In this document: in pieces, positions 10,855 through 12,342 of the stretch
Layout: each line of letters starts with the position of its first letter
Numbering within the stretch: position 1 is the first letter of the stretch
Source of the DNA: a bacterium BMS3Abin08
Lineage (GTDB): Bacteria > Nitrospirota > Thermodesulfovibrionia > Thermodesulfovibrionales > JdFR-85
DNA: 39,199 bases
Assembly: GCA_002897935.1 (NCBI GenBank)
Contig: BDTA01000084.1
Span: forward strand, 1-39,199
Direction: 5' to 3'
Notes under the pieces: model-generated
Told to the model about the DNA's origin: nothing
Seen by the model: only the letters and a program-made list of their open reading frames with translations
The model's database searches: none
Program-made: the position numbers and the translations under genes

Positions 10855-11277
10855 ATGAAGGTCGCCGTGGTTGATGGGCAGGGTGGAGGCATCGGGAGTC
10901 TGATAGTAAAGAGACTCCGGGAGGAGTTTGGGGACGAGATAGAGATTCTCGCCCTGGGAACAAACTCTTCTGCAACATCAGCCATGATGAAGGCCCGGGC
11001 CAATAGGGGCGCAACCGGGGAAAATGCAATTATATTCAACAGTGACAGGGTCGATTTTATATTAGGTCCACTGAGTATCCTTGTAGCTAACGGTATGCTT
11101 GGTGAGCTGACCCCCCTGATGGCCGAGACTCTTTCTTCTTCAAGGGCCAGGAAGGTGCTCCTTCCGCTCAATCAGGAGGGGATCGATGTCATAGGGATAG
11201 AAAAGGAACCTTTACCGCATCTCGTTGAGAAGGCAATAGATCTGTTAAGAAGATACATCAAAAAGGAGGCTTGGTAA
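10855..11277 (+). CDS. DUF3842 family protein
   Basis: The 140-residue protein begins MKVAVVDGQGGGIG, a Rossmann-like glycine-rich opening. The central part, TNSSATSAMMKARANRGATGENAI followed by a D-F-I-L-GP segment, and the late LPLNQEGIDVIGIE segment are typical of DUF3842. Its biochemical role is unknown; a nucleotide-binding fold is a guess from the glycine-rich start. It overlaps the next gene (CooT family) by a TAATG stop-start, so the two are almost certainly co-translated. That suggests a link to nickel handling. No Shine-Dalgarno sequence precedes the ATG. Confidence 0.85.
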   Translation: MKVAVVDGQGGGIGSLIVKRLREEFGDEIEILALGTNSSATSAMMKARANRGATGENAIIFNSDRVDFILGPLSILVANGMLGELTPLMAETLSSSRARKVLLPLNQEGIDVIGIEKEPLPHLVEKAIDLLRRYIKKEAW

Positions 11278-11465
11278 TGTGCGAAGCAAATGCATATATC
11301 TATGAAGATGGGAATGAATCCTTATACCTGGAGAATGTCGATATCCTGAGACCCGAGGGAGACAAGGTCTTCCTGAGAAACCTCTTTGGTGAGCAGAAGG
11401 AGTTTGAGGGTCGTATCAGGGAGATATCTCTCATCAGCCATAAGATATTACTGGAGAGGACATAA
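11277..11465 (+). CDS. CooT family nickel-binding protein
   Basis: This 62-residue protein starts MCEA, with the conserved cysteine at position 2 that in CooT (from the carbon monoxide dehydrogenase maturation locus of Rhodospirillum rubrum) is a nickel ligand. Other family signatures are ENVDILRPEGDKVFLRNLFGEQKE and the closing GRIREISLISHKILLE. It probably binds Ni(II) as a homodimer and may help supply nickel enzymes, but no carbon monoxide dehydrogenase or hydrogenase gene lies in this window. I start it at the ATG at 11277, which overlaps the DUF3842 stop. A frame-extended TTG at 11271 would displace the conserved Cys2. Confidence 0.85.
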   Translation: MCEANAYIYEDGNESLYLENVDILRPEGDKVFLRNLFGEQKEFEGRIREISLISHKILLERT

Positions 11466-11556: not shown

Positions 11557-12342
11557 ATGAGTATTCGCAGATTGTTTTGCCTTGTACTGGTATTCTCCTC
11601 TGTAACATTTTTCGGGGCTCAGGGCAAAGCCCTTGGATTTGGCGGCTGTGAGGAGGATTGCACCAAGTGTCATACCCTCAACGCCAAGGAGGCAGGGCAG
11701 GTCCTGAAACCGCTTATACCGGACATCAAGGTGCTTGAGGTAAGGATGGCCCCTGCAAAAGGCCTCTGGGAGGTCGCCCTTGAATCAAGGGGAAAGAAGG
11801 GGATCGCCTATGTTGATTTTTCAAAGGAAAATGTCTTCATCGGGCAGATAGTTAAGATCAAGACGAAGCAGAACCTCACCAGAAAGCGGTTTCTGGAACT
11901 CAACCGGGTGGATTTTTCAAAGATCCCCCTTGATAATGCCCTTGTCCTTGGTAACCCGAAAGCCGCACACCGGGTTGTGGTCTTTGATGATCCCGACTGA
12001 CCATTCTGTGCACGACTTCATCGGGAGATGAAGCAGGTTTTAGAGAAGAGAGACGATATTGTCTTCTTTATAAAGCTCTTTCCACTGAAGATGCATAAGG
12101 ATGCCAGAAGGAAGGCGATGGCCATCCAGTGTGAGAAGTCAATCAAGCTCCTTGAGGCAGCTTTTGAAAAAAAGAAGATCCCCGACCCCACCTGCAAAAC
12201 GGATGCTATAGACAAGAATATTGAACTGGCAACAAAGTTGGGAATAACGGGAACTCCTGCGATTATCCTACAAGACGGCCGGGTATTAAGTGGCGCAATA
12301 ACTGCTAAACAGATCATCGAGTATGTGGATGGCAAGAAGTAA
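11557..12342 (+). CDS. DsbC/DsbG-like thiol-disulfide protein, candidate selenoprotein (in-frame TGA = Sec148)
   Basis: A continuous frame of 261 residues is interrupted only by TGA at 11998-12000. The N-terminus has a signal peptide, then C-x3-C-x2-CH at residues 31-39 (a possible c-heme or metal site), a DsbC_N-like dimerisation region, and a thioredoxin-fold domain. The fold's active site normally reads CPxC after a V-V-F-D-D-P-D strand; here it reads U148-P-F-C151. Downstream are two more cysteines (C192, C213), where DsbC has its structural disulfide, and the TGTPAI cis-proline loop (P234). A hairpin at 12016-12033 fits a bacterial SECIS. AAAGGAG precedes the ATG. It probably isomerises or reduces disulfides in the periplasm. 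A nonsense mutation is the alternative, but the exact position of the TGA argues against it. Confidence 0.8.
12016..12033 (+). promoter_or_regulatory. Candidate bacterial SECIS element for the DsbC-like protein
   Basis: CTTCATC-GGGA-GATGAAG forms a perfect 7-bp stem with a GGGA tetraloop inside the coding sequence. The loop begins 23 bases after the TGA, within the 16-37-base range described for bacterial SECIS. Its first two loop bases are G, as the SelB-binding consensus requires. Confidence 0.7.

Follow-up and report, generated by a model that had tools for sequence, protein, structure and literature searches.

A predicted selenocysteine-containing DsbC-like oxidoreductase in a Nitrospirota genome

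Disulfide oxidoreductases of the Dsb type that carry selenocysteine (Sec) at a UxxC active site are already known. Published catalogues of bacterial selenoproteins list a "thiol:disulfide interchange protein" with this site (PF13098; for example WP_011366075.1) (PMC1794560; reviewed in PMC9312934 and PMC13188914), and also a UxxC "DsbG-like protein", in agreement with the statement in the original prediction that Sec forms of Dsb-fold proteins had been reported. The hairpin that directs Sec insertion in bacteria (bSECIS) has a stem of 4-16 bp, a loop of 3-9 nt with G in the first two loop positions, a spacing of 16-37 nt from the UGA and an MFE of at most -7.5 (PMC13188914). According to the same review, changes from Sec to Cys are rare in bacteria and for the most part confined to FdhA and SelD. 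In this study, we analysed a gene within a 39,199-nucleotide stretch of Nitrospirota DNA, hereafter the window. Our literature search found no report of a Sec DsbC-like protein in Nitrospirota, and this gene is a well-supported further case of Sec at the UxxC site of a Dsb-type protein.

The recoded gene and its family

The gene runs from an ATG at 11557 to a TAA at 12340-12342 (Table 1). It had been proposed that two adjacent open frames are joined here through one TGA; sequence and translation agree with this, and the frame holds exactly one in-frame TGA. Read with Sec, the active site is D-P-D-U-P-F-C. An ordinary annotation loses the catalytic half of this enzyme, and does so in dozens of genomes at once.

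Table 1. Positions of the features of the selenoprotein gene in the window
Feature	Position	Strand	Remarks
DsbC-like thiol(selenol):disulfide oxidoreductase selenoprotein gene, complete	11557..12342	+	261 aa
Probable Sec-type (secretory) signal peptide, end approximate	11557..11637	+	MSIRRLF, hydrophobic run, AQGKA; read from sequence
C31-x3-C35-x2-C38-H39 (CxxCH), possible haem c attachment site	11647..11673	+	Invariant in 17-member alignment; CxxCH in 102/120
DsbC_N (dimerisation-type) domain, residues 45-108	11689..11880	+	Pfam PF10411, 5e-9
Thioredoxin_2 catalytic domain, residues 137-256	11965..12324	+	Pfam PF13098, 8.9e-20
UGA, predicted Sec148 (codon 148), site of first active-site Cys	11998..12000	+	TGA or TGC/TGT only in 120 distinct homologues
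Cys151, second (resolving) active-site Cys of UPFC	12007..12009	+	Cys in 120/120 homologues
bSECIS hairpin CTTCATC-GGGA-GATGAAG	12016..12033	+	Arms 12016-12022 and 12027-12033, loop 12023-12026; perfect 7 bp in 78/78 TGA and 1/42 Cys members; fold
Cys192, half of conserved Cys pair	12130..12132	+	Invariant (17-member alignment); aligns with DsbC Cys
Cys213, other half of conserved Cys pair	12193..12195	+	Invariant (17-member alignment); aligns with DsbC Cys
Pro234, cis-Pro of TGTP (residues 231-234)	12256..12258	+	Invariant (17-member alignment)

The predicted DsbC/DsbG-like identity is well founded. The DsbC_N and Thioredoxin_2 matches both exceed their cut-offs, as expected for the DsbC/DsbG superfamily, PF13462 (Thioredoxin_4) matches at 6.1e-16, and DsbC structures are matched by sequence (4npb, 1.3e-15) and by profile (1.4e-19). 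A CxxC-type site with its cis-Pro loop is present as UPFC plus an invariant GTP, with the first Cys replaced by Sec. The fold hallmarks expected downstream of the TGA are in place, and C192, C213 and the G-T-P of TGTP do not vary among 17 relatives; the named relatives are metagenome-assembled genomes (MAGs) of Nitrospirota / Thermodesulfovibrionales. On the other hand, the protein scores 74 bits against the NCBIfam DsbC equivalog NF008129, far below the cut-off of 215 bits. It is therefore not a canonical DsbC, and "DsbC-like" is the right label. An AlphaFold model of the monomer, built from a 17-sequence alignment, has a mean pLDDT of 82.5 and a pTM of 0.58, with an uncertain domain arrangement. 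The catalytic domain of the model is closest to ScsC and DsbC, which are tied at a Z of about 17-18, with 134-145 residues superposed at an rmsd of 2.3-2.9.

Among 395 genomes drawn from the phylum, 156 had a homologue at E <= 1e-15. The 133 members extracted from the fetched loci have TGA (87), TGC (25) or TGT (21) at the codon for U148, and no other codon. Removal of identical copies leaves 120 distinct homologues, 78 with TGA and 42 with Cys. Hence, the TGA lies at the position of the nucleophilic Cys of CPxC, as originally read, and the proposed alignment with Cys-containing homologues shows Cys there in every one of the 42 non-TGA members. Each TGA member has exactly one in-frame TGA in its core. 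No relative was found in viral contigs.

These homologues also bear on the view that the gene is a pseudogene or the product of an assembly or sequencing error, its real products being two ORFs or a truncated protein. Such a view could point to the origin of the window in a draft MAG and to standard gene callers, which stop at TGA. Nevertheless, the TGA and an intact downstream coding region are common to independent genomes; the downstream active-site Cys, the cis-Pro and the Cys pair are invariant; and truncation would leave a product of 147 aa devoid of the whole catalytic domain. With 78 distinct homologous genes carrying TGA at the same codon, a sequencing error at this codon is excluded in practice, and the wider pseudogene or error reading is refuted in practice by the same homologues; we assign it a negligible probability.

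The hairpin, the selenium machinery and the decoding of UGA

The loop of the hairpin downstream of the TGA lies 22 nt from the UGA, and the 48-nt stretch formed by the UGA and the following 45 nt folds at -13.1 kcal/mol (z = -2.0 against shuffles). Stem length (7 bp), GGGA loop, spacing and energy all fall within the published bSECIS constraints. Taken alone, the hairpin is weak to modest evidence, because 5.8% of all TGAs in the window are followed by a comparable 7-bp hairpin of some kind; the background for a perfect stem at exactly this offset is 0.15%. Across the family, the hairpin is decisive. We found a perfect 7-bp stem at the fixed offset in 78 of 78 TGA genes and in only one of 42 Cys genes (Fisher p about 2e-31, with the genes counted as independent and kinship ignored), and it is therefore a bacterial SECIS. 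On supported branches of the tree, the hairpin goes with Sec in seven or eight of eight tree-independent pairs, with none against. Thus the 7-bp hairpin with a GGGA loop at the right distance, as first proposed, fits the bSECIS consensus and is conserved across the family only with TGA.

Codon usage within the stem follows the same pattern. All 78 TGA genes have CTT as Leu codon 6 and AAG as Lys codon 11, whereas in Cys genes CTT accounts for 11 of 34 Leu codons at the former site and AAG for 18 of 39 at the latter. The loop of the TGA genes consists of one variable base followed by GG (GT in two genes). Covariation in the stem is small, amounting to one pair that changes from T-A to C-G in three TGA genes, so the case rests on conservation of sequence plus structure. 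At gathering scores, an Rfam search of the window returned no SECIS, and neither did a search at E up to 1 of the 3.8-kb locus L009, which surrounds the gene; this result is uninformative.

The genome, a 2.61-Mb draft MAG that is 96% complete, contains all four genes for which a search had been advised: selC, a tRNA-Sec with a UCA (TCA) anticodon; SelA (595.8 bits); a full-length SelB (355.7 bits); and selD. The latter (L150; G000:C100:26260-27174, minus strand) has its own in-frame TGA, giving KAAGUAGKLGP, and SelD is thus itself a predicted selenoprotein. A strong SelB match was found in about 60 of the 64 counted genomes with a TGA form, and no clear match was found in four, with three candidates scored per genome. 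SelB occurs almost throughout the class, which makes the contrast between SelB and TGA weak.

Two paralogues of the DsbC-like gene in the same genome (contigs C123 and C83; 53% identical) have TGA at the same codon, within UPYC. A TlpA/AhpC-TSA-like gene lies 3.7 kb downstream of the C123 paralogue, near a cytochrome c gene (L015, G000:C123, 11911-12507, plus strand); its in-frame TGA, read as FWTTW-U-GWC, makes it a second Sec candidate. On C83, which holds the third Sec DsbC paralogue, a gene for a CcdA-like DsbD_TM protein (L016, 12425-13147, plus strand) lies about 3.5 kb further downstream, with a CopC-domain gene in between.

The genome also encodes a tRNA-Sec-shaped RNA between yedF and a LysR gene (G000:C92:10603-10701, minus strand; L002 1501-1599, L012 10603-10701), which matches RF01852 at 54.6 bits. 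Its anticodon is GCA (Cys), and it has U73 and an encoded CCA. It is similar to the selC* tRNA-Cys described in Nitrospirae and other groups, although its T stem reads 5 bp and the reported one 4 bp with a bulge (PMC7609411). A normal tRNA-Cys(GCA) is present besides. This RNA of Cys identity, the Cys residue of the 42 homologues and the existence in other lineages of selC* tRNA-Cys with a UCA anticodon (PMC7609411) could suggest that a suppressor tRNA or a variant code, rather than Sec insertion, places Cys or some other standard residue at the UGA. Yet the RNA in question has GCA, not UCA; among the tRNAs scanned via family matches, tRNA-Sec alone has a UCA anticodon, tRNA-Cys having GCA and tRNA-Trp CCA; 11 of the 24 long ORFs in the window terminate in TGA; and it is only the TGA genes that conserve the bSECIS. 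Standard decoding is consequently very improbable. Of its specific forms, a code with UGA as Trp was rejected given that TGA is a used stop and tRNA-Trp has CCA, and a Cys suppressor given that no UCA tRNA besides tRNA-Sec occurs among those scanned.

From the computed recoding signals, machinery, family and active-site position, we infer that the UGA is translated as Sec, and we regard Sec insertion at the active site of this DsbC-like protein as almost certain. None of the three checks by which the original prediction could have fallen, on the sel genes, on the TGA codon itself and on the residue in homologues, went against it. SelB, tRNA-Sec(UCA) and the hairpin just downstream would together decode UGA 148.

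Interchange of Sec and Cys

A quick maximum-likelihood tree of the 120 members, for which the Sec column was masked, shows at least 15 interchanges of Sec and Cys. With three plasmid-encoded Cys DsbC proteins as the root of this tree, parsimony at equal costs counts 1-4 gains of Sec as against 12-15 losses to Cys. The direction depends on cost, with a shift towards gains when losses are costed double, and many nodes are weakly supported. On this rooting with Cys outgroups, the most parsimonious history has an early gain of Sec, after which Sec gave way to Cys 12-15 times. The near identity of the hairpin in all Sec members favours a single origin of Sec.

Some Cys genes retain the hairpin, wholly or nearly so. 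One of them (L066, G128:C39:94842-95609) has TGT together with a perfect SECIS hairpin, and two others (L094 and L078) keep six of the seven pairs. Intact or near-intact hairpins of this kind are as expected if Sec had been lost recently. L066 is probably a recent change from Sec to Cys; alternatively, its UGU may be read as Sec.

Most switches in the DsbC-like family thus appear to run from Sec to Cys, in contrast with the rarity of such changes stated in the review (PMC13188914). The family amounts to a natural experiment, in which close relatives have Sec or Cys at one active site, with at least 15 switches and with SECIS hairpins that are intact in the Sec state and decayed in the Cys state. 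It makes the benefit of selenium to a periplasmic disulfide enzyme directly testable.

Role of the protein and comparison with known systems

Family membership and signal peptide point to a periplasmic selenium-based reductase or isomerase. The DsbC-type protein would be exported via its signal peptide, and Sec148, as the nucleophile of U-P-F-C, would attack substrate disulfides in the periplasm, with Cys151 resolving the mixed selenosulfide. Through its DsbC_N domain, the protein is probably a dimer. The genome encodes a full-length DsbD (a 617-residue open frame on C117), which probably keeps the protein reduced for work as a disulfide reductase or isomerase. We infer the redox partner, the substrates and the catalytic direction, and consider the isomerase/reductase role reasonably probable. 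Upstream, the gene directly adjoins DUF3842 and CooT genes (10855-11465), and a biotin carboxylase gene follows downstream. Among close relatives, only a minority keep any of this neighbourhood, in the form of DUF3842/CooT (13 and 8 loci); with so little conservation, it gives no hint of what the window copy does.

In 102 of the 120 members, a CxxCH motif directly follows the signal peptide, 111-119 residues N-terminal of the Sec/Cys position; in half of the 102 an extra Cys precedes it (CxxxCxxCH), as in the window protein. The motif is missing from a paralogue clade that includes the other two copies in the genome. The motif resembles a site of haem c attachment, but could instead be a metal site; the Pfam search gave no cytochrome match for the window protein. 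Sec could be inserted in a protein that serves mainly in something other than disulfide isomerisation, such as electron transfer linked to haem or the reduction of thiols in cytochrome c maturation. Besides the widespread CxxCH, such a role would agree with the location of one paralogue beside a cytochrome c gene and the Sec TlpA-like gene, and of another 3.5 kb from the CcdA-like gene. The window copy, however, lacks such neighbours, CxxCH is a candidate haem site only, and DsbC_N and the cis-TGTP loop fit an isomerase or reductase. We therefore hold this alternative to be possible but rather unlikely, and retain the isomerase/reductase role. A more elaborate proposal is likewise tentative: the proteins may form an undescribed class of haem c-bearing Sec DsbC in Nitrospirota, in which a covalent CxxCH haem would exchange electrons with the Sec/Cys site and Cys would have replaced Sec on a dozen or more occasions, with remnants of the SECIS left behind. 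Our literature search yielded no publication that deals with haem-linked DsbC or with selenoproteins of Thermodesulfovibrio.

Among known systems, the "thiol:disulfide interchange protein" selenoproteins share with the window protein PF13098 as top Pfam hit, Sec at the first Cys of UxxC and a bacterial SECIS; the likeness to WP_011366075.1 is one of shared Pfam domain only. They were named for a few Deltaproteobacteria (PMC1794560), whereas the window protein belongs to Nitrospirota and has DsbC_N and the N-terminal CxxCH. The DsbG-like selenoprotein (UxxC, PF13462 / NF041057) shares the DsbG/DsbC superfamily COG1651 and Sec at the first active-site Cys; NF041057 was not reported for the window protein in the NCBIfam search at E <= 1e-3. 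DsbC of Escherichia coli and Yersinia (1eej, 4npb) has in common with it the DsbC_N and thioredoxin domains, the GTP cis-Pro loop and the Cys pair, at 24-30% identity over the aligned structure. Unlike the window protein, which scores well below the DsbC equivalog cut-off, these enzymes have Cys rather than Sec and no CxxCH. For the catalytic domain, ScsC of Proteus mirabilis has the top structural Z (17.8), in a tie with DsbC entries, but it aligns only over that domain (model residues 116-261), whereas the window protein has a DsbC_N recognised by Pfam. The CxxCH after the signal peptide and the frequent reversions from Sec to Cys are the less expected features of the family.
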